Assembly: GCA_017994695.1 (NCBI GenBank)
Contig: JAGOKF010000018.1
Location: forward strand, 1 to 52,621
Direction: 5' to 3'
Length of the DNA: 52,621 nucleotides
From: Myxococcota bacterium
GTDB taxonomy: Bacteria > Myxococcota_A > UBA9042 > DTJE01
This document shows positions 32,464 to 48,421 of this stretch, in pieces. Numbering within the stretch: position 1 is the first letter of the stretch; every line of letters begins with the position of its first letter. Under the pieces are notes generated by a model, which was not told the origin of the DNA, ran no database searches, and saw only the letters and a program-made list of their open reading frames with translations. A program made the position numbers and the translations under genes.

Positions 32464-33582
32464 ATGCTCCCCGCGGTCGGACGGGAGGCCCGGTTGGTCG
32501 GCGAGGATCCCCGGATCACCGGCATGGCGGCCTGCTGCGCCCTGGGCGGGGACGCCCGGACCGCCTGGCGAAACCTCCTGGCGGGAGCCACCGGCCTGCG
32601 GCCCGACGGAACCGGCACGGTCACCGGCACGATGCCCCATCCCCCCTGGGAGGGGGAGGGCGATCCCTGGGCCGCCTGCATCGCCCGCGTGGCCCGGGAG
32701 GCCATCGGCGACGCGGGGGAGGACCCCGCCCGGGCCCTGGCCAACCCCGCCACCGGCCTGGTGGTCGCCACCACCAAGGGGGACATCGAGGGGTTGCGGT
32801 GCCCGGGACGGCCCGACTCCCTGGGCCCGTTCCTCCGGCGGGTGAGGAAGGCCCTGGGTCATCAGGGACCCGCCGAACTCGTCTCCGCCGCCTGCGCCTC
32901 GGGATCCGCGGCGCTGGTCCGGGCGGACCGGCTGGTCCGGGGGCGGGTCTGTCGGCGGGTGCTGGTGATCGGCGCGGACCGCCTGGACCCCTTCCTGGTC
33001 GAGGGATTCCGCTGCCTGGGAGCGATGGCGCCCGGCCCATGCCGCCCCTACGACGACGAACGGGAGGGCCTCTCCCTCGGGGAGGCGGTGGCGGCCCTCT
33101 GGATCGAGGGAGGCCCGGGTCCCGGGGTGCGCCTGGCGGGGACCGGCCAGTCCCAGGACGCCGCGGGCATGGTCCGGCCCGACCCCTCGGGAGGGGGCCT
33201 GGCCCTGGCCATCCGCCGGGCCCTGGCCGAGGCCGGAGGCAAGACGACGGGGGCGATCTGCGGCCACGGGACGGCCACCGAGGCCAACGACGCGATGGAG
33301 GCCGAGGCCTTCCGGGCCGTGTTCGGAACGTCCCCGCCGCCGGTCTTCGGGATCAAGGGCGCCACCGGACACACCCTGGGCGCCTGCGGGACCCTGGAGG
33401 CCCTGGTCTCGGTCATCGCGCTGCGGGAAGGTCTGCTGCCCCCGACCGCCGGGCACCGCGCCGGGAGCCTGGGCCTCGACGTCACCCTCTCCCCCCGGGC
33501 GCTGCCCGAGGGGAGAATCCTGTCGGTGAACTCGGGCTTCGGGGGGCTCAACGTGGCCCTGATCCTGGAGGCGTCCCGGTGA
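32464..33582 (+). CDS. Beta-ketoacyl-ACP synthase (APE/FabF type)
   Basis: 372 residues; first gene of the lipid operon. Condensing-enzyme triad intact: SAACASGSAAL (Cys144), GHGTATEAND (His268) and IKGATGHTLGACG (Lys298, His303). It is shorter than FabF (about 410), like the KS of aryl polyene clusters. The start is uncertain: ATG 32464 has only GGGGAAG upstream. A TTG at 32494 follows GGGAGG by 5 nt and would still keep DPRITGM. The 3' end overlaps the next gene by GTGA, and that gene encodes a Cys-less KS-like partner. By analogy with ApeO-ApeC the two probably form a heterodimer that elongates the chain with malonyl-ACP. Confidence 0.85.
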   Translation: MLPAVGREARLVGEDPRITGMAACCALGGDARTAWRNLLAGATGLRPDGTGTVTGTMPHPPWEGEGDPWAACIARVAREAIGDAGEDPARALANPATGLVVATTKGDIEGLRCPGRPDSLGPFLRRVRKALGHQGPAELVSAACASGSAALVRADRLVRGRVCRRVLVIGADRLDPFLVEGFRCLGAMAPGPCRPYDDEREGLSLGEAVAALWIEGGPGPGVRLAGTGQSQDAAGMVRPDPSGGGLALAIRRALAEAGGKTTGAICGHGTATEANDAMEAEAFRAVFGTSPPPVFGIKGATGHTLGACGTLEALVSVIALREGLLPPTAGHRAGSLGLDVTLSPRALPEGRILSVNSGFGGLNVALILEASR

Positions 33583-34298
33583 GGGAAGTGAGGCTGGCAT
33601 CGACGGTGATGGTGGACCTCCGCGACCGGACCGGACCCGGCGGGACCTGCCGGTGGAACGAGGACGGGACCCGGGCCGCTCCCGATCCCCGGGAGTTCTT
33701 CCCCGACCTGGACCGCCCGGCCCGGATGGACCTTCCGAGCCGCTTCGTGCTGGCCGCCGGAGGGCTCATCCCGCCCCTGCCCAAGGCCCTGAGGGATGCC
33801 ACCGGAGTCGTGCTGGGGACCGCCACCGGGTGCCTGGCCGTGGACCGGGACTTCGCGGCGACCCTCGCCCTGCGCCCCCAGCCGTCCCTCTATGCCCGGA
33901 CCCTCCCCACCACGGCCGGGGCCGAACTCTCCCGGGCCCTTGGTCTGCGGGGGCCCGGCCTGGCGGTGGTCCAGGAGACCTCGCCGGGGTACCAGGCCCT
34001 GGTGACCGCCTGGCAGGAGGCGGCCTCGGGGGCCTGCGACGCCGTGATCTGCGGGGAATACCACGTACCCCCGGCCGACGGAACGGCCCCATGGGTGGTG
34101 CTGGCCCTGCTGGTTGCGGTATCCTGCGACTCCCCGGGGCGCCTGCTGGAATGCCGGTATCTCGGGGCAGGGGATCCCGGGCCGGGGGCGGACCTGCGGG
34201 ACCTGCTCGGATCCCTCGGGGAACGGGGCCCCTGGCAACGGGAAGTCCTCCTGGAGGGGGGTCGGTGGCGAGTCTCCCTGGCGGCCGTTTCCGAGTGA
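33579..34298 (+). CDS. KS-like chain-length-factor partner (ApeC-like)
   Basis: 239 residues from GTG 33579 (GTGA overlap; GTG 33588 is an alternative). It corresponds to an N-terminal ketosynthase half of Ketoacyl-synt_2 type (PF13723-like): FVLAAGGLIPPLPKALRDAT, VVLGTATGCLAVDRDFAATL and LPTTAGAELSRALGLRGPGL. The nucleophile-elbow region reads VVQETSPGYQALVTA, so the ACxSG cysteine is replaced and condensation cannot occur. In aryl polyene systems the equivalent ApeC pairs with ApeO as chain length factor. The adjacent intact KS is its probable partner. Confidence 0.75.
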   Translation: MREVRLASTVMVDLRDRTGPGGTCRWNEDGTRAAPDPREFFPDLDRPARMDLPSRFVLAAGGLIPPLPKALRDATGVVLGTATGCLAVDRDFAATLALRPQPSLYARTLPTTAGAELSRALGLRGPGLAVVQETSPGYQALVTAWQEAASGACDAVICGEYHVPPADGTAPWVVLALLVAVSCDSPGRLLECRYLGAGDPGPGADLRDLLGSLGERGPWQREVLLEGGRWRVSLAAVSE

Positions 34299-34305
34299 GG
34301 GCATC

Positions 34306-35655
34306 GTGCGGGTCTTCCTGATCTCGGCCAACCCGGAACGGACGCCGTTTCCCGTGTTCCCCATCGGCATCTCCTACGTGGCGCGGGCCCTGGAGGACCG
34401 CCACGAGGTGCGCCTGTGGGACTTCCTGGCGGACGGGGAGGAGGGCCTTCCGGGGGCGCTTCAGGCATTCGATCCCCACCTGGTGGGCCTCTCCCTCCGG
34501 AACGTCGACGGCACCCGGCCCGACGGCCGGTTCTACCTGGACCACTACCGGGACCTGGCCCGGAGGATCCGGCAGGCCCACCCGGCGCCCCTGGTCCTGG
34601 GCGGAGCGGCCTTCACGCTCTTCCCGAGGCAGTACCTGGAGGCCCTGGGAGCGGACTACGGGATCGCCGGGGAGGGGGAGCACCTCCGGGACCTGGCCGA
34701 CGCCCTGGAGGCCGGCCAGGACCCGCGGGAGTGGCGTGTCTCGGGACTGGTCCTGCCCGGGAGGGAGCCCGGACGGACCTGGAACTGGACGGGCTCCATC
34801 GGACACGCCCTCGCCGTCGAGGACCTGGCGATCCGCCACGGCCGGGCCTGCGGGGGCGTCCTGAACCTCCAGACCAGGCGGGGCTGCAACTTCCGGTGCG
34901 TCTACTGCACCTACCCCGCCGTCGAGGGCCGGCGGCTGCGCCACCGCCCCCCCGGGGACCTTGTCGGCGAGGCCCTCCGGCTGAAGGCCCTGGGGGCCCG
35001 GCATCTCTTCCTGGTGGACTCGGTCCTGAACCTCGCCGCCGAGGACCTGCTGGCGACCTGCAGGGCCTTCGCCACCGCGGGAGTCAACATCCCCTTCTCG
35101 GCCTACCTGGCCCCCTTCGGCATCCACGACGACCTGGCCGCGGCACTCCGGGAGGCGGGGATGACCCACGCGGAACTGGGAACCGAGTCCCTGAGCGACT
35201 CGGTGCTCCGGGCCTACGGGAAGCCCTTCCGGTGGGACGACGTGCGAACCGCCCACGAGGCCCTGGGACGGGCGGGCATCCACCGGGCCCACTTCCTGTT
35301 GTTCGGAGGGCCCGGGGAGACGCCGGAGACGGTCGAGGAGACACTGAGGCGCAGCCGGGAACTGCAGGACACGGTCTTCTTCCCCTACCGCACGATGCGG
35401 ATCTTCCCCGGCACCCCTCTGCACCGGAGGGCCCTGGCCGAGGGAGTCGTCCGGGAGGAGGATGACCTCTTCCACCCGGTGTTCTATTGTTCCCCCCAGG
35501 TGGACCCGGAATGGCTCCGGGACCGCCTCGGGAGGGAGGCGGAGGAACGCCCCAACTTCGTGCTGGACGACGCCTCCGAGGAACTGGCGGCCCTGGTGGC
35601 CCGGGCCCACGCCCGGGGCCGGGCCGGGCCGATGTGGGAGTGGCTGTGCCGGTGA
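34306..35655 (+). CDS. B12-binding-type radical SAM enzyme of lipid biosynthesis
   Basis: 449 residues from GTG 34306, 7 nt after the previous stop. The N-terminal 130 residues have the B12-binding Rossmann layout (FLISANPERTPFPVFPIGIS, DPHLVGLSLRNVDG, LVLGGAAFTLFPRQYL, YGIAGEGEHL). The radical SAM core follows with RRGCNFRCVYCTYP, giving the 4Fe-4S ligands Cys194, Cys198 and Cys201. The downstream ELGTESLSDSVL and FLLFGGPGETPETVEETL segments match the family barrel. As I recall, rSAM proteins of this type accompany ladderane-like and other ketosynthase clusters and are named lipid biosynthesis B12-binding/radical SAM proteins. The reaction here is unknown; methylation, desaturation or ring formation on an acyl chain are possible. 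Confidence 0.82.
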   Translation: MRVFLISANPERTPFPVFPIGISYVARALEDRHEVRLWDFLADGEEGLPGALQAFDPHLVGLSLRNVDGTRPDGRFYLDHYRDLARRIRQAHPAPLVLGGAAFTLFPRQYLEALGADYGIAGEGEHLRDLADALEAGQDPREWRVSGLVLPGREPGRTWNWTGSIGHALAVEDLAIRHGRACGGVLNLQTRRGCNFRCVYCTYPAVEGRRLRHRPPGDLVGEALRLKALGARHLFLVDSVLNLAAEDLLATCRAFATAGVNIPFSAYLAPFGIHDDLAAALREAGMTHAELGTESLSDSVLRAYGKPFRWDDVRTAHEALGRAGIHRAHFLLFGGPGETPETVEETLRRSRELQDTVFFPYRTMRIFPGTPLHRRALAEGVVREEDDLFHPVFYCSPQVDPEWLRDRLGREAEERPNFVLDDASEELAALVARAHARGRAGPMWEWLCR

Positions 35656-38045
35656 CTTCCGGGGACCCCAGGGCCGTCGTGACCGGGATCGGGGTCGTCT
35701 GCCCCATCGGGACCGGCCTGGCCGAATTCGAGCAGTCCCTGGTGGAGCATCGCTGCGGCATCCAGCCGGTCCAGGCCTTCGACACCTCCCCCTTCCGGAG
35801 CCACCTGGCGGGAGAGGTGCAGGGGTTCGACGCCTGGCAGGTGCTGCCACCGGGACTGGCCGAGGCGTGGCAGGACCGGTACCTGCTGCTGGCCCTGGCG
35901 GCGGCCCGGCAGGCCCTCCATCACGCGGGCCTGCCGCCGGACCTCTCGGCCTTCCGGGCCGCCATCTCGGTGGGAACCTGCAACGGGGGTCTCCGGACCG
36001 TCGAGAAGCGGTGGCAGGACCGCCTGGCCGACCCCGAGGCTCCCCTGGAGGAGGCGGACGCGATCCGGATGCGGTACGCGGCCCTGGGCCAGGCCCTGAG
36101 CGGCACCTTCGGGGTCCGGGGGCCCCTGGCGGTCGTCACGACGGCCTGCTCCTCCTCCACCAACGCCCTGGGCCTGGCACTGGACCTGGTCCAGAGCGGC
36201 CAGGCCGACGTGGTGCTGGCCGGAGGGTCCGACTCCCTCTGCCTGACCACCTTCGCCGGATTCTCGTCGGTGAAGGCGATGGCCGAACCCGGGCCCTGCC
36301 GCCCCTTTTCCGGGGGCCCCGCCGAGGCGGGCATGAACCTCGGGGAGGGATCGGGCTTCTGGGTCGTGGAGTCCCGGGATCACGCCCTCCGGCGGGGCGC
36401 CCGGTGCCTGGGAGAGGTGCTGTCCTACGGCCTGTCGGCCGACGCGCACCACCTCACGGCCCCTGAGCCCCAGGGGGAAGGGGCCTTCCGGGCCCTCCGG
36501 AGGGCCATGGAGCGGGCCGGCCTCTCCCCGGACGACCTGGACCACGTCCACGCCCACGGCACCGGCACCGAGTCCAACGATCGGTCCGAGGCCCGGGCGC
36601 TGCTGCGCCTGATGGAGGGCCGGGTGCTGCCGGTGACCTCCCTGAAGTCCTTCCTGGGACACACTCTCGGGGCCGCAGGGGTCCTGGAGGCCACGGCCTC
36701 CCTGGTGGGCCTGCGCCGGGGCTTCATCCCGCCGACGCTCCACTACGACGGACCCCGGACCGGCATCCGCCTGGACGTGGTGGGACCCGATTCCCGGCCC
36801 TCCCGGAAGAGCGTCTTCCTGAAACTGAACCTCGCCTTCAGCGGGAACAACGCCGCCCTGGCCATCGAGGCCCCGCCGCGGCCCGACCGGGCACCCCCGC
36901 CCCGGCCCCGGTACCGGGCGGTGGTGACCGGCCTCGGGGCCGTGAGCCCCTTCGGCATCGGCACCGCGGCGATCCGGGACGGATTGCGGGCCGGACGGAC
37001 CGCGGTCCGGGAGGTGGACCGGTTCGACGTGTCCCGGTGCCGCTGCCGACGGGCGGCCGTGGTCCCGGAAGTGGACTGGCGGGCCGCCGACCGGCGCATC
37101 GATCTCCGGGCGATGAACCCCATCAGCCGGATGGCCGCCCTGGCCGTGAAGGAGGCCCTGGAGGGGGCGGGGCTGGCCCTCCGTCCCCGGACGCTCGAAC
37201 CCTACGGCCTGGTGATGGGAGTCCACGTGGGCCCCTCGGAGGAGCCGCTGCTCCGGCGGGTCTGGAGCACCCCGAACCGCCTGGCCGATCCCACCGGTTT
37301 CGCCGAGAGCGTCGCCAACAGCGTGGGGGGATACGTCTCCCAGGCCCTCTACCTCCGGGGCCACTCCACGACGCTGGCCACGGGGCCCCAGTCGGGAGTG
37401 GCCGCCCTGGCCCACGCGGCCCAGGCCATCCTGCTGGGCCACGGGAGCGGGATTGTCGCCGCGGCGGCCGACGAGATCTTCGAGGCCCGCTACCGGGACG
37501 AGGACGCCGCCGGGTGGCTGCCTCCGGACCCCGATTCCGAGGGAGGCCGGGGCTGGCGAGGACGCCTGCCGGGGGAGGGATCCGCGGCCCTGCTGCTGGA
37601 GGAGGCCGGCACGGCCAGGGCCCGGGGTGCCCGGCCCCTGGCGGAGGTCCTGGGACTGGCCGGCGCCACGGACCCGGGATCGATCCGGGGCCCCGCGGAG
37701 GACGCCGGGGGACGGATCGAGGTCCTGCGCCGATCCCTGGAGGGGACCGGCCTGGGGCCCGGGGACATCCGGGCCGTGGCCTGGGCGCCGGCGGGAGGCA
37801 CACCGGGCCGGAAGGACCGGGAGGCCATCGAGGCGGTCTTCGGGGCGGCCCCGCCCCGCTGCCTGGACACCGTGGACCTGGCGGGGTACGCCGACGCCAC
37901 CTCGGCGCTGCTGGCCCTGGTGGCGCTGCTGGCAGAGGCCCCGGGGGAGGCCCTCCCGGGGCCGGTGATGGTCTTCGGATCGTCCCCCCTGGGGGCCCAT
38001 TGGGCCGTCTTGCTGGGCCCCCCGGAACCGGAGCGGGCCGGATGA
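35652..38045 (+). CDS. Fused ketosynthase and inactive ketosynthase (KS-CLF didomain)
   Basis: 797 residues from GTG 35652 (GTGA overlap with the rSAM gene). KS1 (about 8-410) is complete: TTACSSSTNAL (Cys166), HAHGTGTESND (His302), SLKSFLGHTLGAAG (Lys332, His337). KS2 starts near residue 418 (YRAVVTGLGAVSPFGIGTA) and is decommissioned. Its elbow reads LATGPQSGVAALAHA with no Cys, the HGTGT site reads AWAPAGGTPGRKD, and the KxxxGH site reads DTVDLAGYADAT. This is the organisation of KS-CLF in type II polyketide and PUFA synthases, but in one stand-alone protein. It presumably forms an intramolecular pseudo-heterodimer that sets chain length. The next gene overlaps by ATGA. Confidence 0.85.
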   Translation: MTSGDPRAVVTGIGVVCPIGTGLAEFEQSLVEHRCGIQPVQAFDTSPFRSHLAGEVQGFDAWQVLPPGLAEAWQDRYLLLALAAARQALHHAGLPPDLSAFRAAISVGTCNGGLRTVEKRWQDRLADPEAPLEEADAIRMRYAALGQALSGTFGVRGPLAVVTTACSSSTNALGLALDLVQSGQADVVLAGGSDSLCLTTFAGFSSVKAMAEPGPCRPFSGGPAEAGMNLGEGSGFWVVESRDHALRRGARCLGEVLSYGLSADAHHLTAPEPQGEGAFRALRRAMERAGLSPDDLDHVHAHGTGTESNDRSEARALLRLMEGRVLPVTSLKSFLGHTLGAAGVLEATASLVGLRRGFIPPTLHYDGPRTGIRLDVVGPDSRPSRKSVFLKLNLAFSGNNAALAIEAPPRPDRAPPPRPRYRAVVTGLGAVSPFGIGTAAIRDGLRAGRTAVREVDRFDVSRCRCRRAAVVPEVDWRAADRRIDLRAMNPISRMAALAVKEALEGAGLALRPRTLEPYGLVMGVHVGPSEEPLLRRVWSTPNRLADPTGFAESVANSVGGYVSQALYLRGHSTTLATGPQSGVAALAHAAQAILLGHGSGIVAAAADEIFEARYRDEDAAGWLPPDPDSEGGRGWRGRLPGEGSAALLLEEAGTARARGARPLAEVLGLAGATDPGSIRGPAEDAGGRIEVLRRSLEGTGLGPGDIRAVAWAPAGGTPGRKDREAIEAVFGAAPPRCLDTVDLAGYADATSALLALVALLAEAPGEALPGPVMVFGSSPLGAHWAVLLGPPEPERAG

Positions 38046-38389
38046 ACGAGCCCTTCCGCCTGGATCACCTGGACCAGGACGACCGGCAGGTCGAGGCCCG
38101 GGTGCACGTCCCCGTCGACTGCCTCTTCTTCCGGGGGCACTTCCCGGAGGAGCCGATCCTCCCGGGCGTGGCCCAGGTGGTCCTGGTGACCTCGGTGCTG
38201 CGGAGGGTGGCCGGCGGCCCTCTCCGGGTCCAGGCGATCCGCCGGGTCAAGTTCACCTCCCCGGTCCGGCCGGGCATGGACCTGGCCCTCCGCCTGGTCC
38301 TGGAGGGACCGAAGGTCCTCTGGCGACTGGCGGGACCCCAGGGGGAGGTGTCCTCCGGCGAGATCCTCGTGCATCGGGAGGATCCGTGA
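38042..38389 (+). CDS. Hotdog-fold 3-hydroxyacyl-ACP dehydratase (ApeI/FabZ-like)
   Basis: 115 residues, ATG overlapping the previous stop. One hotdog domain with FFRGHFPEEPILPGVAQVVL: the catalytic His33 is present. The acidic partner of FabA/FabZ is replaced by the Gln of GVAQ, as in ApeI-type dehydratases of aryl polyene clusters. It should dehydrate 3-hydroxyacyl-ACP to the 2-enoyl form, keeping double bonds for a polyene. Followed by a GTGA overlap. Confidence 0.82.
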   Translation: MNEPFRLDHLDQDDRQVEARVHVPVDCLFFRGHFPEEPILPGVAQVVLVTSVLRRVAGGPLRVQAIRRVKFTSPVRPGMDLALRLVLEGPKVLWRLAGPQGEVSSGEILVHREDP

Positions 38390-40008
38390 AACCCCTCCGG
38401 GTCTGCGGCCTGATCCCCCTGTTCAACCACGGCGAGACGGTGACGGGCGTCGCGGAGGCCCTCCGGCGACACCTGGACCTCGTGCTGGTGGTCGATGACG
38501 GGTCCACCGACGGCGGCGCCGATCGCCTGCCGGCCGGCGACCCGGGTCTGGTCGTGATCCGGAGGCCCCGGAACGGGGGGAAGGGAGCGGCCGTGAAGGA
38601 GGGCCTCCGGGCGGCCCGGTCCCTGGGATGCACCCATGTCCTTCAGATGGACGCCGATGCCCAGCACGACCCGGACGACATCCCCCGCTTCCTCGAGGCC
38701 GGGGAACGGGAACCGGGAACGCTCTGGACCGGCGAGCGGATCTTCGAGGAGGACGCCCCGGGCCGGTCCCGGTTCGGGCGGCGGTTCGGGATGTTCTGGT
38801 GGCGGGTCGAGACCGGGGACCGCACGCTGACGGACACCCAGTGCGGCTACCGCCTCTATCCCCTGGACGGCCTGCCGCCCCTGGAACGCCTCGGCGACCG
38901 GATGGACTTCGACGTGGAGATCCTGGTCCGGGCGACCTGGAGGGGAACCCCGGTCCGGGGCCTCCCGACCCGCGTCCGCTACGGGGGTCCCGGAACCCAC
39001 CGGAGCCATTTCCGGCCGTTCCGGGACAACCTGCGGATGACCTCCATGCACACCCGGCTCTGCCTCGAACGCTGGACGGGCCGCGCCCGCCCCCCCGATC
39101 CCCCTTCCGGTTCGCCCCGGTGGCTCCGGGCCCGGGAGGCCGGGTCCCGGACAGGCATCCGCATCGTGCTGGCCCTGGGACGCCTGGCGGGCTACCGGGC
39201 GGCCAGGGCCCTGACGGCCGCCGTGGCGACCTGGTACGCCCTCTTCGCCCCCGGACCCCGACGGGCCCTGGCGGAATTCCATCGCCGCGCTCTCGGGCGG
39301 GCCTCCTTCGGCCTCGCCTGGAGGACGATCTTCTCGTTTGCCGAGTCGATCCTCGATCGGGCCTTCGTGGCCATGGGCCGATCGGGAATCTTCCGCCTGG
39401 AGGTGGAGGCCCCCGCAGGACTGCTGGATCCGGGGTCGCCCCCGAGGGGTCGCCTGGTCCTGGGGGCCCACCTGGGAACCCTGGAGATGGCCCGGGCCTT
39501 CGCCGTCACCGAGCGGGTCTCCTTCTCGATGTGGATGCACGCCGCCCCGTCCTCCGGACTCTACCGGGAACTGCGGCGCCTGGACCCCTCCTTCCACGAG
39601 TCGCTGATCCCGATGGGTTCCGGTGGAGAGGCGGTCGAGGCCCTGCTGGTCGTCCGGGACCGGATCGGCGCGGGCCAGTACGTCGGGGTCCTGGCGGACC
39701 GGGTCTGGGCCACGGGTCCTCGCATCACCCTGCCCTTCCTGGGAAGGGACCGCCAGTTCCCCCTGGGCCCCTTCAAGGCCGCCGTGGCCCTGAAGGCCCC
39801 GGTGCTGATGGCCTTCCTGGTGAAGACCGGGCCGAGGGACTACCGCCTGGTGCTCCATCCCCTGGAGGCCGGCGAGGCGGGATCCGACACCCGGGACCGG
39901 AACGCCCGGGTGGCTGCACTGGCCTCGAGGTACGTCCGGGGCCTCGAGGAGGCCGCCCGGCGCTTCCCGACCCAGTGGTATAATTTCTTCCCCTTCTGGG
40001 ATCCTTAG
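38386..40008 (+). CDS. GT2 glycosyltransferase fused to LPLAT acyltransferase (ApeJ-like)
   Basis: 540 residues from GTG 38386 (GTGA overlap, GGGAGG upstream). Residues 1-235: GT-A family 2 fold with LIPLFNHGETV, VVDDGSTDGGADRL and the metal-binding QMDADAQHDPDDIP. Residues about 260-540: a lipid A/lysophospholipid acyltransferase domain with LGAHLGTLEMARAF (H-x4-E motif) and the closing RFPTQWYNFFPFWDP typical of LpxL/HtrB-like enzymes. The same fusion occurs as ApeJ in aryl polyene clusters, where it is thought to build the glycolipid head and attach the acyl chain. Likely at the cytoplasmic face of the inner membrane. Confidence 0.88.
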   Translation: MKPLRVCGLIPLFNHGETVTGVAEALRRHLDLVLVVDDGSTDGGADRLPAGDPGLVVIRRPRNGGKGAAVKEGLRAARSLGCTHVLQMDADAQHDPDDIPRFLEAGEREPGTLWTGERIFEEDAPGRSRFGRRFGMFWWRVETGDRTLTDTQCGYRLYPLDGLPPLERLGDRMDFDVEILVRATWRGTPVRGLPTRVRYGGPGTHRSHFRPFRDNLRMTSMHTRLCLERWTGRARPPDPPSGSPRWLRAREAGSRTGIRIVLALGRLAGYRAARALTAAVATWYALFAPGPRRALAEFHRRALGRASFGLAWRTIFSFAESILDRAFVAMGRSGIFRLEVEAPAGLLDPGSPPRGRLVLGAHLGTLEMARAFAVTERVSFSMWMHAAPSSGLYRELRRLDPSFHESLIPMGSGGEAVEALLVVRDRIGAGQYVGVLADRVWATGPRITLPFLGRDRQFPLGPFKAAVALKAPVLMAFLVKTGPRDYRLVLHPLEAGEAGSDTRDRNARVAALASRYVRGLEEAARRFPTQWYNFFPFWDP

Positions 40009-40023
40009 ATCATGGAGCGCCCC

Positions 40024-40521
40024 ATGACCCCCCGGATCCGGCCCCCGAGACCCCCGCGCCTGGCCCCGAACCCCGGGGCCCGGGTGGTGGAGGTCCCCTT
40101 CCGGGTCCCCTTCCACGACGTGGACGCGATGCAGGTGGTCTGGCACGGCCACTACGTGAAGTACTTCGAACTGGCCCGGACCGAACTGGAACGGGTGATG
40201 GGGCTGGGACACCAGGACCTGCTGGCCCGGAACCTGATCTGCCCGGTGGTGGACCTCCAGTGCCGCTACCTCTCCCCGCTCCGGATGGGTCACGAGGGAC
40301 GGGTCCGGGCCTTCATCGTGGAGGCCGATCGGACCCTCTGGATCGCCTACGAGGTGCTGAACGACACGACGCGCCGGAAGGCGGCCGAGGGCTACACCGT
40401 CCAGGTCGCCCTGGCCGCCGACACCTTTGAACTGGTGATGGAGTTGCCCGATGACATCGTGGACCGGGCGCGGACTGTGGCTGGCCTGCCTGCTCTGGAC
40501 CGGGTCGGCGCGGGCCGCTGA
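40024..40521 (+). CDS. Hotdog acyl thioesterase (ApeK/4HBT-like)
   Basis: 165 residues from ATG 40024, which has GGAG 5-6 nt upstream; ATG 40012 in frame adds four residues but lacks a ribosome binding site. The core has VPFHDVDAMQVVWHGHYVKY, the 4-hydroxybenzoyl-CoA thioesterase signature with the catalytic Asp, then FELARTELERVMGLGHQDLL. It presumably releases or proof-reads acyl-ACP intermediates. The 3' end overlaps the next gene by 71 nt. Confidence 0.85.
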   Translation: MTPRIRPPRPPRLAPNPGARVVEVPFRVPFHDVDAMQVVWHGHYVKYFELARTELERVMGLGHQDLLARNLICPVVDLQCRYLSPLRMGHEGRVRAFIVEADRTLWIAYEVLNDTTRRKAAEGYTVQVALAADTFELVMELPDDIVDRARTVAGLPALDRVGAGR

Positions 40522-41125
40522 TCCGCCGGTCGTTCCCGGCGCCCGCCCCCCGGAGGAAATCCCCTGCCGCCAGGACGAGGCGCTGGTGCGTTCCTTCCAG
40601 GAGGTCCGCACGCTCCGGGCCGCCTTCACCGACCGCCGGGAGGTGGACCTGCTGGACGAGCCCCTGGTCTCCCGGGGCCGCCTGCACTACCAGCGGCCCG
40701 ACCGGCTCCACTACGCCGTCGAGTCCCCGGGACGCCAGGAGATCGTCGTGGCCGGATCGCAGGTGCGGGTCTCCCAGCGGGACCTGGGCCGGTCGAGGTC
40801 CCTCGACCTCCAGGCATCGGACACCGCCCGGGCGGTGGTGTCGAGCCTGATCCAGGTCCTCGGGGGCCGCCTGGACCGCCTCGAGGCGGACTACCTCTGC
40901 CGATCCCTCCGGATGGCCGACGGGTGGGAGGTCCGCCTGGCGCCCCGGGGACCGCCGCTGGACCGTGCCGTCCGGGGCATCGAGGCACGGATCGCCGGCG
41001 ACGGGAGCCTCCGGGAGGTCCGGGTCCGGGAGGCCACCGGGGATTCCTCCCGGATGACCCTCGAGGACGTCCAGGTCAACGTCCCCTTCAGCGCCGAGGA
41101 GGAAAAGGCCTATTTCACGCCCTGA
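40451..41125 (+). CDS. LolA-like periplasmic lipid carrier (ApeL-like)
   Basis: 224 residues. ATG 40451 lies inside the thioesterase gene. A signal peptide (LWLACLLWTGSARA, then ADPP) precedes a LolA half-barrel domain: VRSFQEVRTLRAAFTDRREV, PLVSRGRLHYQRPDRLHYAV, IVVAGSQVRVSQRDLG. Such proteins carry hydrophobic cargo across the periplasm; in this operon the cargo would be the glycolipid or free acyl product. Its last 14 nt overlap the proposed start of the exporter gene. Confidence 0.82.
   Translation: MTSWTGRGLWLACLLWTGSARAADPPVVPGARPPEEIPCRQDEALVRSFQEVRTLRAAFTDRREVDLLDEPLVSRGRLHYQRPDRLHYAVESPGRQEIVVAGSQVRVSQRDLGRSRSLDLQASDTARAVVSSLIQVLGGRLDRLEADYLCRSLRMADGWEVRLAPRGPPLDRAVRGIEARIAGDGSLREVRVREATGDSSRMTLEDVQVNVPFSAEEEKAYFTP
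41097..41114 (+). promoter_or_regulatory. Ribosome binding site with ATT as probable start codon of the MMPL gene
   Basis: AGGAGG (41097-41102) is followed after 9 nt by ATT (41112-41114). Between the last in-frame stop (about 41054) and a TTG at 41190 there is no ATG, GTG or TTG. The ATT start includes the first membrane helix that the TTG would lose. Confidence 0.5.
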
Positions 41126-43472
41126 CCAGAAGACCGTCCTCCGCCTGGGCCTGGTCCTGCTGCTGGGCCTCTCCCTGTGGCAGTCCCGGTTGCTGCGGCT
41201 GGAAACGGACATCACGCGGTTCCTTCCCGAGGGCGAGGACCGGGACCGCCTGGCCCTCCTGCAACTGGTCCGGGCCTCGGGATTCCAGCGGGGGCTGGTC
41301 CTCGCCGTCGAGGTCCCGGGGGACCGGGAGGCTCCCGACGAGGCCTTCCGGGTCCTCGTGGCGGCCTTCCGAACCTCCCTGGAGGACACGGGGCTCTTCC
41401 GGCACGTCCGGGGCGGCCCGCCCGAGGGGACCGTCGAGGCCTTCCGGGAAATCCTGTGGCCCCGGCGGTTCGCCCTCTTCGCCGACAACCCCGAGTCGGA
41501 CGTCCCTGCCCGGTTCTCCCCCGAGGGGGTCCGGAAGTCCCTGGAAGCCCTCCGGCAGGCCCTGGCCTCCCCCTCCGGGGCGATGGACCGCGCCCTGGCC
41601 CCCGAAGACCCCCTGCTCCTCTCCCGGGACCTGCTGGACCGCCTGGACCGGGAACTTTCGCACCTCTCCCCCAGGACCTGGCAGGGCCAGTGGTTCTCCC
41701 GGGACCTCCGGACCGCCCTCCTGCTGGCCGAGACGGAGGCCCCGGCCTTCGACACCGTCCGCCAGGGCGAGGTGCTGGACCGGGTCCGGCAGGTCTTCGG
41801 GAGGCTCCAGTCCGAACTCTGTCCCGGGGCCTCGCTCCGCCTGACGGGCCTCCCGCGGTTCGTGGTGGAATCGGAGCAGCGGGCCCGGGGGGACATCACC
41901 CGGGTCTCCCTGGTGGCCTCGGCGGCGTCGGTGCTGCTGTTCCTGCTGTTCTTCCGGGGGATCCGCCACCTCCCGCTGGTGCTCCTGCCCGTGGCCGGCG
42001 GCCTCGCCCTGGCCACGGGGATCCTGTCCCTGGTCCACGGCCGGATCCACGGCCTGACGCTCGCCTTCGGCGGCGTCCTGATCGGGGCCGCCATCGACTA
42101 CCCCGTCCACCTGGTCCACCACCTCTCCCAGGACCCGGCGTTCCGGGAGTCGGGACGCCTCCCGGGTCCCCTCCAGAAGAGCCTGTGGGCGGGGTTCCTC
42201 ACCACCCTGTCGGCCTTCGGCCTGCTGGCCTTCTCCACCTACCCCGGGCTGCGGGAAATCGCCCTCTTCTGCGCGACGGCCCTCTCGGGGGCCTTCGCCT
42301 GCTCCCTCGCCTTCGTGCCCCCGGTGGTCCGGCGGTTCCCGGCCCGGCGACTCCCCCGGCGCGTGGACATCCGCCTTCCGCGGCCCCTGGCGATCCCCCT
42401 GCTGGTCCTGGCCGCCCTGCCGGTGCTGGCCGTCCCGGCCCTGCGCCTGGAATCGGATGCCCGGGCCCTGGACGACGCCGACCCGGCGACCCTGGCCGAC
42501 GACGCCCATGTCCGTTCGCTGCTGCCCTCCTCGGCCCTCCCCCGCCAGGTCGTCTGCTCGGGCCCCGACGTCCAGCAGGTGCTCCGGTGCAACGACCGGG
42601 TCCACCGACACCTGGCGGCCTTCCGGGCCGGGAATGGAGGCATCCCCTTCGCGTCCCTCCACGGACTGATCCCCTCCGAGGACCACCAGCGGCGGACCCT
42701 GGCCGCCCTGGCGGCCCTGCCCGGCTCCCTGGAGGACGACCTCCGGGGGGCCCTGGCCGGGGCGGGCTTCCGCCCCGACCGCTTCGGGCCCTTCTTCGAG
42801 GCCCTCGCGGAGGCCCGCGGCGGCGGGGTGACTCCCCTGCTCCCGCAAGACCTGGACGGCACCCCCCTCGGGGAGGCCCGGGACGGCCTGCTGTTCCCCC
42901 GACCCGACGGATGGGCCGCCGTGACCCTGGCGGGGCCTCCCCCCGAGGCGACCCCGGATCCGGTGGCCGACCTGGCCGAGGACCCGGAAGTGGTGGTGCT
43001 GGATCCCGGGGCCCTGGTCTCCCGCCTCATCACCGCCTCCCAGGCCCAGACATTCGGCCTGCTGTGGGCGGGGGTCCTGGTCAACGGGATCTGGATGCTC
43101 GGCCTCCGGGGCCGGCGAGGCCTGTGGATGCTGCTCCCCTCGGCCCTGACCCTGGCCTCGGTGACCGGCGTGCTGGTCCTCCTGGGGCAGCCCCTGAACT
43201 TCCTCCACGCGGTCGCCCTGCTGCTGGTGCTGGGCATGGGGGTGGACTACGGCATCTTCCTGCTGGACGCGTCGTCCTCCGGCGAGGTCTCCCGGACCTC
43301 CGGGAGCGTGCTGCTGGCCGCCGCCACCACGCTGGCCTCCTTCGGGGGGATGGCCTTCGCCCGGACCGGGGCCCTGGTCGCCGTGGGCGGTACCGTGAGC
43401 GGGGGACTGCTGCTGGTGCTGCTGTTGACGCTGGCCGTGCTGCCCCTGGCAGGGCACGGGAGGCCCCCGTGA
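41112..43472 (+). CDS. MMPL/RND-family lipid exporter (ApeM-like)
   Basis: 786 residues if begun at ATT 41112, close to family length; the first conventional start, TTG 41190, removes 26 residues. The upstream segment encodes VLRLGLVLLLGLSLWQSRLL, a proper first transmembrane helix, running directly into RLETDITRFLPEGEDRDRLA. Two halves follow, each with a periplasmic loop and a five-helix bundle. The proton-relay type aspartates lie in GAAIDYPVHLVHHLS and GMGVDYGIFLLD. The exporter probably moves the acyl product across the inner membrane to the LolA-like carrier. It overlaps the DUF3261 gene by GTGA. Confidence 0.85.
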   Translation: MSRPDQKTVLRLGLVLLLGLSLWQSRLLRLETDITRFLPEGEDRDRLALLQLVRASGFQRGLVLAVEVPGDREAPDEAFRVLVAAFRTSLEDTGLFRHVRGGPPEGTVEAFREILWPRRFALFADNPESDVPARFSPEGVRKSLEALRQALASPSGAMDRALAPEDPLLLSRDLLDRLDRELSHLSPRTWQGQWFSRDLRTALLLAETEAPAFDTVRQGEVLDRVRQVFGRLQSELCPGASLRLTGLPRFVVESEQRARGDITRVSLVASAASVLLFLLFFRGIRHLPLVLLPVAGGLALATGILSLVHGRIHGLTLAFGGVLIGAAIDYPVHLVHHLSQDPAFRESGRLPGPLQKSLWAGFLTTLSAFGLLAFSTYPGLREIALFCATALSGAFACSLAFVPPVVRRFPARRLPRRVDIRLPRPLAIPLLVLAALPVLAVPALRLESDARALDDADPATLADDAHVRSLLPSSALPRQVVCSGPDVQQVLRCNDRVHRHLAAFRAGNGGIPFASLHGLIPSEDHQRRTLAALAALPGSLEDDLRGALAGAGFRPDRFGPFFEALAEARGGGVTPLLPQDLDGTPLGEARDGLLFPRPDGWAAVTLAGPPPEATPDPVADLAEDPEVVVLDPGALVSRLITASQAQTFGLLWAGVLVNGIWMLGLRGRRGLWMLLPSALTLASVTGVLVLLGQPLNFLHAVALLLVLGMGVDYGIFLLDASSSGEVSRTSGSVLLAAATTLASFGGMAFARTGALVAVGGTVSGGLLLVLLLTLAVLPLAGHGRPP

Positions 43473-44056
43473 GACACCGGGCCCTGGTGCTGGTGCTGGC
43501 CGGACTCGCCTGCCGGAGCCCCGTTGCCATCGACGTCGGCCGGTGGGCCGGACCGGACCTCCGGATCGATCACTCCCTCTGGCTGGAGGCCCGGGGCCAG
43601 TCCTTCCTGGGCCGGGGGGTGTTGCAGCGCCGAGGGGACCGCCTGGACCTGCTGCTGCTGGCTCCCACGGGCCAGCGCCTGCTGACCGTCGAGGCCCGGG
43701 GACGAACGGTCCGGGCCCGGGCCACGGTCCCCGCCCTGGAACGCCTGGACCCGGCCCGGCTGCTGGACGACGTCCGCTGGGCCCTCTTCGCCGGGTGTCC
43801 CGGGAGCCTGCCCGGTCCCGAGGTCCGCTGCGAGGTGGGCGGGCGGCGGGTGGTCGAGGCCCGGGACGAGGGAGGCCGCCCGGTGCGCCGGGAGGTCCGC
43901 CGCCGGGGATCGACGATCCGGGTCGAGTTCGAGGACTGGTCCGGAGCCTCGGGGTGCCCGGAGGTTCCCCGCCGGGTGCGCTTCCACGACGTGGATGGGG
44001 GATACCGGTGGGAGATGGGGGTGGATGCCTGCCGGGTGGCGATTCCCGGCCCCTGA
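43469..44056 (+). CDS. DUF3261 lipoprotein (ApeN-like)
   Basis: 195 residues from GTG 43469. The signal peptide ends LAGLAC (probable lipidation at Cys15, with a non-ideal -3/-2). Residues 30-110 show the family pattern RGQSFLGRGVLQRRGDRLDL, LLAPTGQRLLTVEARG and LDPARLLDDVRWALF. A disulfide-capable Cys pair lies further on. It is the last gene of the operon, as ApeN follows ApeM in aryl polyene clusters. Likely an outer-membrane-anchored acceptor for the exported lipid. Its stop is 7 bp from the convergent stop of the DUF4410-like gene. Confidence 0.82.
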   Translation: MRHRALVLVLAGLACRSPVAIDVGRWAGPDLRIDHSLWLEARGQSFLGRGVLQRRGDRLDLLLLAPTGQRLLTVEARGRTVRARATVPALERLDPARLLDDVRWALFAGCPGSLPGPEVRCEVGGRRVVEARDEGGRPVRREVRRRGSTIRVEFEDWSGASGCPEVPRRVRFHDVDGGYRWEMGVDACRVAIPGP

Positions 44057-44063
44057 CCCCGCG

Positions 44064-44623
44064 TCACTTCTTGTAGACGCCCTGGATCGCCTTGGCGCTG
44101 CCCTTCAGGATCAGCAGGCTGACCTTCTGGACCGCCGCGGGCCAGTCGCTGCTGCCGCTGCCCTCGTTCAGTTCCCCGCTGGCCAGTTTCCCCGACTCCC
44201 CGGTGAGGCGGTAGGAGGCCGCCAGGCGGGCCTCGGCGGCGTTCGCCATCGCCATGCCTGCATAGCCCCCGAGCAGGGCCCCGGCCACCCGGGCTCCCTT
44301 GGCGCCCGGGTTGTACGACAGGACCTTCACGGTCAGCAGGAATTTGTTGGGCCCTGGGGTGAACTGGTCCGCGGCCTCCAGCGTCTCGATCTCGTACCCG
44401 TTCTTGTCAAAGCGCTTCTTGAGGTCCGCGGCGAAGTACTCTCCGACCTGGGTCAACTGCTTCGCCTTCTCGGCATCGGTGTCCTCGGTGATGCCGTAGT
44501 CGAACACGACCGAGACCACCACCTTGCCCCGTCGGGGGGCACCGGGGCCTTCAGGCCCGGACCGCAGGCCGCGAGGCCCAGCATCAGGACGACTCCCACC
44601 GCCAGCAACGGAATGCGCGCCAT
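44064..44623 (-). CDS. DUF4410-like lipoprotein, apparent 1-nt frameshift near the N-terminus
   Basis: From ATG 44623 (GGAGGGAAGGG upstream) the frame encodes a clear lipoprotein signal, PLLAVGVVLMLGLAACGPG, with Cys20. It then reads into KAPVPPDGARWWS and loses sense. One frame over, RRGKVVVSVVFDYGITEDTD starts and continues without stop to 44064. That part has features of a DUF4410-like domain: LLTVKVLSYNPGAKGARVAG, LGGYAGMAMANAAEARLAAS and a Gly-rich membrane-associating stretch. Total length 560 nt is one short of a multiple of three. Adding one C in the CCCCCC run (plus-strand 44534-44539) restores the whole protein. A sequencing error, a real mutation, or -1 slippage are all possible. 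Confidence 0.7.
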
Positions 44624-44846: not shown

Positions 44847-47606
44847 ATGCTGGAGACGGTTTTCGAACGCCTGGCGCGCGGGGTCTCGCGACATCCCTGG
44901 TGGGCCCTGCTGTCGATGGCGGCGGTCAGCGCCCTGGCGGTCTGGTCCACCTCCCGGACCCCGATCTTCACCTCCCGCCGGGCGCTGCTGGTCCCCGGAA
45001 GTCCCGAGGTGATCCGCTTCGATCGCTTCATGGAGCACTACGGAGCCGCCTCGGACCTGATCCTGGTCCTGGAATCCCCCGAGGGAATGCCGATCCCCCG
45101 GGAGGAGATGGAGGACTTCTCGTCGCTGCTGGCGGAACGGCTGCGGGAGGTCCCGGAGGTGAAGTCCGCCGAGGCCCGGGTGGACGTGGCCTTCTTCCTG
45201 AGCCATGCCTGGACGTCGGCCCCGATGGAGCAGATGGACCAGGCGGAGTCCTTCATCCATTCCCTGGTCCGGTTCCCCGACGGGGTTCCCCGGACGATGG
45301 CCCAGGCCCTGGACATGGCGGAAACCTGGTTCGAGAACCCCCCTTCCCTGGCCGACAAGACCTTCCAGTTGCAGGATGCCCGGCGCATGCTGGACAGCGC
45401 CCGGTTCCTGCTGCTGGAGTGGCTTCGCTGGGTGGAATCGGACAGCACGCCACGGCGCATCTCCTGGGTACAGTTGCTGGGTGGGCAGCCCGAGGCCCGG
45501 GACCTGATCGCGGGCAACGGGTACTACGCCACCCGGGACGGCAAGGTCCTCTTCGTCTTCGTGCGCCCGGTGAACCCCTCCGAGGACTTCCGGTACCTGG
45601 GTCCCTTCTACCGGGGAGTCCGCCAGAAGGCCGAGGAGGTCCGGAGCGCCTGGGCCGCCGAGGGCCGCCGGGCGCCCACCGTGGGCCTCGGGGGCAACCC
45701 CGCCATCGTGTACGAGGAGTTCATGGGCCTGCAGCGGGCCGTCGTCTGGACCGTCGGGACCGCGGCGGTGCTGGTGCTGCTGGTGATCCTGTTCGGGCTG
45801 CGATCCTGGCGCCGGGCCGTCGTGGTCTTCGTGCCGATGGGCATGGGGGCCCTCTGGGGCACCGGCCTGGTGCTGCCGGTCCTCGGGCACATGAACATGG
45901 TCACCACGGCCTTCACGGCGATCCTGTTCGGGATGGGGGTGGACTACGGGATCTTCGTCAGTTCCCGGATCTTCGAGGAACAGCGGAAGGGCGTCGCCCT
46001 GGCCGAGGCCATCGCCACCGGGACCGCCCGGTCCGCCCGGGCCATCCTGCTGGCCGCCGGGGCCTCGGTGGCCGTGTTCCTGTCCCTGGCCACGGCCGAG
46101 TTCCGGGGCTTCCACGACCTGGGCATCGTGGCGGCCCTGGGGATCGTGACGGTCGTGCTGGCGACCTTCCTGGGCCTCCCGGCCCTCTACCGGCTGCTGC
46201 CTCCCCGGACCGTGCCCCTGGCGACCCCCTCGGGCAGTTCGCTGCTGGGCACCCCCGAGGAGACGGGGTGGAGGGCCTGGAAGATGCCCAACCGGGTCGC
46301 CGTCGGGGTCGTGACGGTCTTCGTGCTGCTGGGGGCGACGGGGTTCGCGCTGGGCCTGCAGCTCCCGTTCAACTACGACGTGCTGGAGATGCTCCCGAAG
46401 GACTCCGAGGCCGCCCGCCTCTCCCGCCTGATGTCGGAGCGGAGCGACTTCCAGTCGGAGGTGACGATCCTGCTGGCGAAGGACATCGCCCAGGCCCGGG
46501 ACCAGGCGGCGGCGGCCGAGGGGAAGGACACGGTGGCGAAGGTCCAGACCGTGGCGCCGCTGTTCCCGGAGGACGCCGAGGAGCGGGCCCGGAAGACCCG
46601 GCGCATCGGGGAGGCGATGGAGGCCTCGGAGGTGGCCCACTGGGTGCTGGACCAGACCCGGATCGCCCTGCCCGACGACGGGGCCGCCCGGATCGCGGCG
46701 ATCCTGGACCGGGCCCTGGACCTGGTGGACGACTTCCAGGAGGCGGCCTTCTCGGCCGGGCACAAGGACCTCGTGAAGGACATCGAGGAACTGCGGGGTC
46801 TGCTGCGCCGGCTCAGCGCCCGTCTCCGGGCGGACCCCGAGCGGGCGGCACGGGCCAACCAGGCCTTCCTGGACCGCCTGCTGGGGGACGCCCAGTCGGT
46901 GGTCCGGGCCCTGATCTCCTGGAAGGACGCCCGACCCCTGCAGGTGCAGGACCTCCCTCCCGACATCGCCCACCGCTTCTTCGGGTCCGACGGGTCGGTG
47001 GCCACCTACGTGTACCCGAAGGGGTCCATCTACGACCTGGACTTCCTGGACCGGCTGATGGCCGACCTGAAGGCGATCACGCCGGAAATCACCGGGTTCC
47101 CCAGCACCCACCAGGTGATGTCCCGGGCGGCGTTCCATTCCTTCTACCGGGGCACCCTGCTGGCCTTCGCGGTGGCGATGGTCTACCTGCTGGTGCTGCT
47201 GCGGCGGGTCACGGCCTTCGCCGTGGCGTCGCTGCCCCTGCTGGTGGGGGAGGGCCTGATGCTGCTGCTGCTGGCGATGTTCGGAGCCCAGTGGAACTAC
47301 GCCAACATCATCGCCCTGCCGCTGCTGATGGCCCTGGCGCTGGACTACGGGGTCTGGTTCGCCCACCGCACCGACGAGATGGATGGCCTGGGCCCCTGGC
47401 AGGTGCTCCAGGTCGCCGGGGGGCCCATCCTGATGGCGGCCCTGACGACGCTGGCGGGGCTCGGCGCCATCTCCTTCGCCGAGTACCGGGGCGTATCGAC
47501 GCTGGGACGCAACGTGACCCTGGGCCTCTTCCTCTGCCTGGGCAGCGCCCTGGTGATCGCCCCGGCCCTGGTGCAGGTCCTCTCCCGTTTCCGGAGGCGC
47601 CGATGA
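44847..47606 (+). CDS. MMPL/RND-family exporter, second paralogue (HpnN-like size)
   Basis: 919 residues. AAAGGAGG lies 8 nt before ATG 44847. Helix 1 (WWALLSMAAVSALAVW) is followed by a large periplasmic domain, then helices with GMGVDYGIFVSSRIFEE. A second periplasmic domain of about 300 residues, rich in charged helical segments, is followed by helices with LLMALALDYGVWFAHR. The paired Asp-Tyr-Gly signatures are those of MMPL transporters. The size suits HpnN-like lipid exporters, but no hopanoid genes are present, so cargo is unknown. It overlaps the next gene by ATGA and diverges from the DUF4410-like lipoprotein. Confidence 0.85.
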   Translation: MLETVFERLARGVSRHPWWALLSMAAVSALAVWSTSRTPIFTSRRALLVPGSPEVIRFDRFMEHYGAASDLILVLESPEGMPIPREEMEDFSSLLAERLREVPEVKSAEARVDVAFFLSHAWTSAPMEQMDQAESFIHSLVRFPDGVPRTMAQALDMAETWFENPPSLADKTFQLQDARRMLDSARFLLLEWLRWVESDSTPRRISWVQLLGGQPEARDLIAGNGYYATRDGKVLFVFVRPVNPSEDFRYLGPFYRGVRQKAEEVRSAWAAEGRRAPTVGLGGNPAIVYEEFMGLQRAVVWTVGTAAVLVLLVILFGLRSWRRAVVVFVPMGMGALWGTGLVLPVLGHMNMVTTAFTAILFGMGVDYGIFVSSRIFEEQRKGVALAEAIATGTARSARAILLAAGASVAVFLSLATAEFRGFHDLGIVAALGIVTVVLATFLGLPALYRLLPPRTVPLATPSGSSLLGTPEETGWRAWKMPNRVAVGVVTVFVLLGATGFALGLQLPFNYDVLEMLPKDSEAARLSRLMSERSDFQSEVTILLAKDIAQARDQAAAAEGKDTVAKVQTVAPLFPEDAEERARKTRRIGEAMEASEVAHWVLDQTRIALPDDGAARIAAILDRALDLVDDFQEAAFSAGHKDLVKDIEELRGLLRRLSARLRADPERAARANQAFLDRLLGDAQSVVRALISWKDARPLQVQDLPPDIAHRFFGSDGSVATYVYPKGSIYDLDFLDRLMADLKAITPEITGFPSTHQVMSRAAFHSFYRGTLLAFAVAMVYLLVLLRRVTAFAVASLPLLVGEGLMLLLLAMFGAQWNYANIIALPLLMALALDYGVWFAHRTDEMDGLGPWQVLQVAGGPILMAALTTLAGLGAISFAEYRGVSTLGRNVTLGLFLCLGSALVIAPALVQVLSRFRRRR

Positions 47607-48421
47607 GACGACGAGACATCCTGGTTGCGATCCTGGCCCTGCTGCTTCCGGCCTCCCTCCAGGCCCGATCCCTGGTCCTCTGCTACCCCGGAGGAGGAGT
47701 GAAGGCCCGGGACGCCCAGCCCTCCACCGAGAAGATGCTCCGGCTGGTGGAGCGTCTGGGAGGTTGGAAGGCGGGCACCTTCGAGTCCTTCTTCACCGCC
47801 AAGGGGGACGAGTGCGAGCGATGGATGGCGGAGAAGAAGCCGGACTTCGCCATCGTGACGCTGGGATACTGGCTGGACCACGGATCGTCCGACGGATGGG
47901 AACCCCTGGTGCAGCCCAAGGTCCAGGGGAAGACCACGGAGGTCTTCCGGGTCGTGGTCCGAAAGGGAACCTACCGGGACCTGGAGGGCCTCAAGGGGCG
48001 ATCCCTGGGCGGCACCCCGCTGGAGGAGCCCCGCTTCGTGGAGCGGGTGATCTTCCAGGGACGCTACCGCCTGTCGGACTTCCAGGTCCGCCCGGGTCTC
48101 CAGGCCCTGAAGGCCCTCCGGGCCCTGAACGAGCGGGAACTGGAGGCGGTGATCCTGAACGACCAGCAGTTCCGGTCGATTGACTCCCTTCCCTTCGGGG
48201 CCGAACTGGAGGCGATCTTCGCGTCGGACCCGATCCCGCTGATGGGGGTGGTCGCCCACACCCAGCGGACCACTCCCGAGGAGCGCAAGAGGCTCCAGAA
48301 GGCGATGCAGGGATTCTGCGGGCACCCGGACGGGAAGGGGTTCTGCGAGTTGTTCGGGATCGACGCCTTCCTGCCGGCCAACGGCAGCGTCTACGACGGG
48401 GCGAGGGCGCTGTGGAAGTGA
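47603..48421 (+). CDS. Periplasmic substrate-binding protein, PhnD-like fold
   Basis: 272 residues. The signal peptide (ILVAILALLLPASLQA, then RSLVLCYPGG) precedes a type 2 periplasmic binding fold. Residues STEKMLRLVERLGGW and KPDFAIVTLGYWLDHGSS form lobe 1. LEGLKGRSLGGTPLEEPRF and EREL-EAVILNDQQF belong to the hinge/lobe 2 pattern found in PhnD-like proteins. No ABC permease or ATPase accompanies it; the partners are an MMPL exporter and a TatT-like lipoprotein. It could be a TRAP P-component analogue or a lipid-binding periplasmic protein rather than a phosphonate binder. Confidence 0.7.
   Translation: MRRRDILVAILALLLPASLQARSLVLCYPGGGVKARDAQPSTEKMLRLVERLGGWKAGTFESFFTAKGDECERWMAEKKPDFAIVTLGYWLDHGSSDGWEPLVQPKVQGKTTEVFRVVVRKGTYRDLEGLKGRSLGGTPLEEPRFVERVIFQGRYRLSDFQVRPGLQALKALRALNERELEAVILNDQQFRSIDSLPFGAELEAIFASDPIPLMGVVAHTQRTTPEERKRLQKAMQGFCGHPDGKGFCELFGIDAFLPANGSVYDGARALWK

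Follow-up and report, generated by a model that had tools for sequence, protein, structure and literature searches.

Introduction

The described systems closest to the locus studied here are the aryl polyene (APE) cluster of Escherichia coli CFT073 (apeA-R) and the ladderane-type FAS-II clusters of K. stuttgartiensis and D. psychrophila. In CFT073 the genes apeI-J-K-L-M-N follow one another in this order (PMC8253772, Table 1). The ketosynthase (KS) ApeO is partnered by the Cys-less ApeC (PMC8358021), so a pair formed by a KS and a Cys-less KS is the expected anatomy of a chain-length-controlled condensing enzyme. Both "ladderane" and "aryl polyene" have been antiSMASH classes since version 3 (PMC4489286), and ladderane-class clusters of Myxococcota and Desulfobacterota have been reported without known product (PMC9902471); clusters of this kind are therefore already known. 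D. psychrophila, which has a similar cluster, makes C31:8 and C31:9 hydrocarbons and no ladderanes (Rattray 2009, PMC2649909), and no ladderane was obtained when anammox genes were expressed in E. coli (PMC4790861, as summarised in PMC9821293). Our literature search brought up no experiment with any member from outside the anammox bacteria, no paper naming the profile TIGR04072, and none describing a radical SAM (rSAM) enzyme combined with APE-type export genes.

The stretch of DNA analysed (the window, 52,621 nt) corresponds to positions 1-52621 of contig C27 in a genome of 3.96 Mb and 158 contigs. It contains a ten-gene operon which, in our judgement, rather likely belongs to a type II PKS-like pathway for a polyene lipid, of the APE/ladderane type, and supplies its condensation, radical-tailoring, attachment and export steps.

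Results and Discussion

Organization of the Operon

The ten genes, at positions 32464-44056 (Table 1), are joined mostly by 4-bp overlaps or gaps of less than 10 bp; the thioesterase (TE) and LolA genes overlap by 71 bp, as they also do in the orthologous locus L001 (JAKPOP010000027). In agreement with the first-pass annotation, which had listed ten coupled genes in this order, all of them were found on the + strand at the positions given there, with matching Pfam and NCBIfam identities. Comparison with the L001 orthologues (73-91% identical) gave dN/dS values of 0.16-0.37 for all ten genes, and this purifying selection indicates that none of them is a chance ORF. The Cys-less partner of the first KS probably starts at the GTG at 33579, which overlaps the KS1 stop codon, and the KS::CLF-like fusion at about 35652. 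Homology of the MMPL protein begins near 41127, yet no ATG, GTG or TTG precedes 41190.

Table 1. Genes of the operon and the adjoining lipoprotein gene, in window coordinates.
Feature	Position	Strand	Basis and remarks
KS1, beta-ketoacyl synthase	32464..33582	+	PF00109/PF02801; C-H-H triad kept; nearest solved relatives are ApeO
Cys-less KS-N-terminal partner, chain-length-factor-like	33579..34298	+	PF00109, 26.8 bits (cutoff 20.8)
B12-binding rSAM	34306..35655	+	PF02310 and PF04055; TIGR04072 rSAM_ladder_B12; CNFRCVYC motif
KS fused to Cys-less KS-like domain (KS::CLF-like)	35652..38045	+	PF00109 twice
ApeI-like hotdog dehydratase	38042..38389	+	PF22818; ApeI 35%, E 3e-9 (BLAST)
ApeJ-like GT2 fused to lipid A-type acyltransferase	38386..40008	+	Lip_A_acyltransferase; ApeJ 32%, E 4e-76
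ApeK-like thioesterase	40012..40521	+	4HBT; ApeK 39%, E 8e-29
ApeL-like LolA family periplasmic lipid carrier	40451..41125	+	LolA; LolA2_flexi 60.9 bits, below cutoff
ApeM-like MMPL/RND exporter	41127..43472	+	MMPL; ApeM 24%, E 7e-22; start codon unsure
ApeN-like DUF3261 outer-membrane (LolB-like) protein	43469..44056	+	PF11659, 42.7 bits (cutoff 22.3)
Small lipoprotein of no known family, possible accessory part	44064..44522	-	Beside the operon in three other genomes

The last six genes had been likened to apeI-J-K-L-M-N, and comparison with CFT073 bore this order out, four of the six being supported by BLAST (E 4e-76 to 3e-9). The match of LolA to ApeL was weak and that of the DUF3261 protein to ApeN not significant, the latter being recognised by its Pfam profile only; its gene is the only one for DUF3261 found in the source genome.

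The small lipoprotein gene that follows on the opposite strand (product CGPGLKAP..., no Pfam family) also adjoins the end of the DUF3261 gene in L001, L050 and L078. Just downstream of the operon (44847-48421, + strand) a second, distinct MMPL transporter is followed by a phosphonate-binding-like periplasmic protein, and a giant putative lipoprotein of about 3300 aa, with about 62 Dicty_CTDC repeats, is encoded at 11001-20921 on the - strand.

Ketosynthases and Their Cys-less Partners

The active-site residues confirmed a KS with a Cys-less partner and a fused KS-CLF, as first annotated. The Cys-His-His triad is intact in KS1 and in the N-terminal half of the fusion, whereas the partner has Thr at the Cys position and has lost both His. 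In the C-terminal half of the fusion both His are likewise lost, and HMMER and MAFFT placed Pro, rather than Gln, at the Cys position, with Gln as the next residue; the canonical CLF Cys-to-Gln swap was thus ruled out for this domain. The closest PDB entries to KS1 were ApeO of Acinetobacter baumannii and Xenorhabdus doucetiae (7f28_B, 6qsp_A), and its identity to E. coli ApeO was 33% (E 3e-31). An AlphaFold model of the Cys-less partner, built with three sequences, had a pLDDT of 35. In the Desulfobacteraceae MAG (locus L002) a KS and a Cys-less domain form a single protein encoded directly 5' of the rSAM gene.

The Radical SAM Enzyme

The rSAM had been described as a B12-binding type which, together with several KS genes, recalls ladderane-type lipids, and its score against TIGR04072 (369.6 bits, positions 1-442 of 443) passed the curated cutoff of 360, by a narrow margin compared with the 480-650 bits of the ladderane-type clade. 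The CNFRCVYC of the enzyme lies within a motif, LQTKRGC...C..CTYP...EGR, that is little changed across the family, and among solved structures the enzyme comes closest to the cobalamin-dependent tryptophan C-methylase 6wte. In the tree, the window rSAM clade grouped with the enzymes of L002, G331 and G106 (100/99) and was the sister of the ladderane-type clade (100/97); the rSAMs embedded in APE clusters of the window's phylum formed a separate clade.

A scan of the genome contigs for close relatives, with the rSAM as query, returned two loci only. A second TIGR04072-like rSAM (323 bits, below the cutoff) was seen at 7423-17342 of L003 (G000 contig C157:14000-33000), where it adjoins a cluster coding for an HpnR-like B12 rSAM, a DarB-like KS III, a KS, two crotonase-like proteins, an AcpS and an acyl carrier protein (ACP). 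This cluster stands for another unusual pathway, leading to a lipid or a polyketide, and is conserved in G036 (L077).

Parts of the Pathway at Other Loci

Among the ten operon genes there was none for an ACP, a ketoreductase (KR) or ApeP. Contig C129 of the same genome encodes, in a row, ApeO-, ApeC-, ApeP- and ApeQ-like proteins; the second matches the ApeC chains of 6qsp and 7f28, and the third scored 23.8 against a Pfam cutoff of 27 and matched E. coli ApeP with an E value of 7e-9. On C68 an AcpS gene adjoins those for an ApeE-type ACP (above the NF006617 cutoff) and for a protein that spans ApeG and ApeD. Contig C20 carries a second B12 rSAM gene together with genes for an ACP, a KS and a Cys-less KS, and for an O-methyltransferase-type protein weakly similar to ApeB/FlxJ. 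The pathway is thus divided among at least four contigs of the source genome. The ApeE/G/D and ApeO-C-P-Q genes of the sister genus g2 are found on the contig of the operon itself (G060 C201 and G026 C32), where G060 encodes one more C20-type B12 rSAM.

ApeH acyl-ACP synthetase was absent from the operon and the fetched loci, no enoyl reductase was seen in the fetched loci, and no clear ApeR orthologue was identified for the pathway of the source genome. An aromatic ammonia lyase was considered as source of an aryl starter and set aside: the only aromatic lyase encoded in the genome has no pathway genes nearby and is probably HutH. With the ACP, KR, ApeP, ApeD/G and second B12 rSAM all encoded at other loci, the reading of the operon as the whole pathway had to be abandoned; it holds one part of a pathway whose genes are dispersed through the genome, and is not self-sufficient. 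Because a single pathway is here cut into several loci, mining by gene cluster would overlook some of its parts.

Conservation

Four further genomes of the family (G036, G060, G026 and G191) have all ten genes in the same order. Within the 13 genomes of family f1, the C20-type rSAM and the C129-type KS were found in all seven genomes with a TIGR04072-type rSAM and were missing from the other six (Fisher p 5.8e-4, on raw counts that ignore kinship). Throughout the window's phylum a TIGR04072-like rSAM was present in 40/284 genomes (E up to 1e-70), nine of which passed the cutoff. DUF3261 occurred in 23 of these 40 as against 39 of the other 244 (p 9e-8, kinship again ignored), and in at least 13 genomes of the phylum the two genes lie no more than 20 kb apart on the same contig. 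The earlier reading had been made to depend on other genomes keeping the rSAM and export genes together; since the two are co-located in other genomes, it survives on this point.

Proposed Pathway

From gene content, active sites, synteny, co-occurrence and purifying selection, which were observed, we infer the chemistry, the order of steps and the product. The growing chain would be held on the dedicated ApeE-type ACP of C68, charged by the adjacent AcpS, and could be elongated by pairs of KS and Cys-less KS, namely KS1 with its partner, the KS::CLF fusion, and ApeO:ApeC of C129. The ApeQ-type KR and the ApeI/ApeP-type dehydratases (DH), acting without an enoyl reductase, would give a conjugated polyene. 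The TIGR04072 cobalamin rSAM would modify this chain by C-methylation or C-C bond formation, and so, probably, would the second B12 rSAM and the methyltransferase of C20. Release would be due to the ApeK-type TE, and the chain would be joined to a sugar/lipid anchor by the ApeJ-type GT2-acyltransferase (AT), with ApeD. MMPL, LolA and DUF3261 may then carry the product to the outer membrane, as proposed for the E. coli APE (PMC8253772). The glycolipid product and the radical modification of its chain are predictions.

Comparison with Aryl Polyene Clusters

Likeness to the CFT073 cluster lies in the apeI-N order of the operon, the ApeO/ApeC-like KS pairs, and relatives of ApeE, ApeG/D, ApeP and ApeQ elsewhere in the source genome. 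The ApeO:ApeC, ApeP, ApeQ and ACP parts expected of an APE pathway are present, by way of C129 and C68. Core and export genes are not contiguous in the source genome, unlike those of CFT073, and are on a single contig in G060 and G026. The operon further differs from CFT073 in its B12 rSAM and KS::CLF fusion; no ApeH was seen in it or in the fetched loci and no clear ApeR was identified, and an aryl head is only putative.

Clusters combining APE genes, including DUF3261, with an rSAM of the same broad family were found in the window's phylum (L062-L068 and others). Their rSAMs are 31-38% identical to that of the window and belong to the separate clade, and the ten-gene order is not kept. At least one other Ape-type gene accompanied the APE-clade rSAM in 16 of the 19 fetched regions, with near-complete sets in L065-L067. 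The combination of rSAM and export genes is consequently not special to this locus, as had been supposed, related rSAMs being found also within true APE clusters.

These clusters bring up the reading of the pathway as an ordinary APE one, with the B12 rSAM acting, by analogy with ApeB, as a C-methylase on the aryl head or the polyene. The near-complete clusters of the phylum and the tryptophan C-methylase 6wte as closest solved structure favour it, as does genome G106, of the same order, in which a TIGR04072 rSAM of 402 bits accompanies APE-type genes and an aromatic amino acid lyase. Against it, no aryl starter enzyme was seen in the pathway loci of the source genome, whose sole aromatic lyase stands apart, and the window rSAM groups with ladderane-type rSAMs and not with the APE-embedded clade. 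ApeB, moreover, is seldom present in the phylum, whether or not the rSAM is there, and its replacement could not be demonstrated. On balance we regard this reading as unlikely, while still giving it some weight.

As to ApeB itself, it was found in 2 of 21 rSAM-negative regions and in no rSAM-positive region; given its rarity either way, no conclusion was drawn on the rSAM as a replacement of this methyltransferase. The G106 rSAM (L054, contig C248), which has the best score in the phylum, lies near ApeR-, ApeD-, KR- and TE-like genes besides the lyase gene, and the locus is apparently an APE/flexirubin-type cluster with a ladderane-family rSAM.

Comparison with Ladderane-Type Clusters

The polyene-lipid pathway proposed above shares with the ladderane-type FAS-II clusters the rSAM family, KS paralogues including Cys-less ones, the GT/AT/TE/LolA/MMPL genes, ACPs, DHs and a second B12 rSAM. 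It departs from them in its split layout in the window genome, in its own KS::CLF-like fusion and in an operon that has no phytoene-desaturase-like gene. The rSAM is accompanied by several FabF-type KS, some Cys-less, as expected of a ladderane-type cluster, and a phytoene-desaturase-like oxidoreductase (PF01593) was found in 0/10 operon genes; the only PF01593 gene seen in the window (3610-5028) encodes a protoporphyrinogen oxidase about 27 kb from the operon. In the phylum of the Desulfobacteraceae MAG, 115/297 genomes matched TIGR04072, 63 of them above the cutoff. Six or seven of the nine regions fetched for the highest-scoring rSAM clade of that phylum have an ApeI-type DH, TE, GT2/AT, LolA, MMPL, LPLAT and ACP, which makes the export module a usual part of ladderane-type clusters and again deprives the rSAM and export combination of its supposed singularity. 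In seven ladderane-type clusters a C20-type rSAM (53-61% identical) stands beside the TIGR04072 rSAM.

Since D. psychrophila makes C31:8 and C31:9 hydrocarbons and has similar clusters (PMC2649909), an anaerobic route to polyunsaturated fatty acids or hydrocarbons, in which an extended FAS-II delivers chains to membrane lipids or hydrocarbons (Rattray et al. 2009), has also to be weighed. We consider it improbable: the ApeI-N module, which includes LolA and DUF3261, suggests that a finished lipid is delivered to the outer membrane, and the KS-CLF pairs, like the APE-type DHs, speak for conjugated polyenes. A ladderane-type or otherwise cyclised chain, with paired B12 rSAMs forming C-C bonds on an ACP-bound polyene, is suggested by the TIGR04072 membership, the sister position of the window clade (100/97) and the presence in the source genome of both B12 rSAMs of ladderane-type clusters, and is nevertheless most improbable given the missing phytoene-desaturase-like gene (that at 3610-5028 being the protoporphyrinogen oxidase), a D. 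psychrophila that has a similar cluster and no ladderanes (PMC2649909), and an rSAM score just above the cutoff, where the ladderane-type clade reaches 480-650 bits.

Relation Between the Two Cluster Classes

The hybrid is not unique and the operon not self-sufficient; the polyene-lipid pathway to which it belongs is therefore best placed as a split variant lying between two known cluster classes that grade into each other, and this continuum is the main point for specialists. New here are the division of the pathway among loci, the KS::CLF-like fusion and the conserved order of the ten genes. With the TIGR04072 rSAM repeatedly found beside APE-type attachment and export genes, its action on a polyene chain is now a testable question. 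It is a long shot that ladderane-type and APE clusters are one evolutionary system, with an APE-type KS-CLF polyene cyclised or made ladder-like by the B12 rSAM pair, glycosylated and exported to the outer membrane; if true, ladderane-type chemistry beyond the anammox bacteria could be studied in this lineage as a model.

A second cluster architecture was observed in the phylum of the Desulfobacteraceae MAG, in which ladderane-type clusters (L002, L112, L114, L117 and L118) carry two further small rSAMs and a KS pair, all of them highly conserved (60-78% identical).
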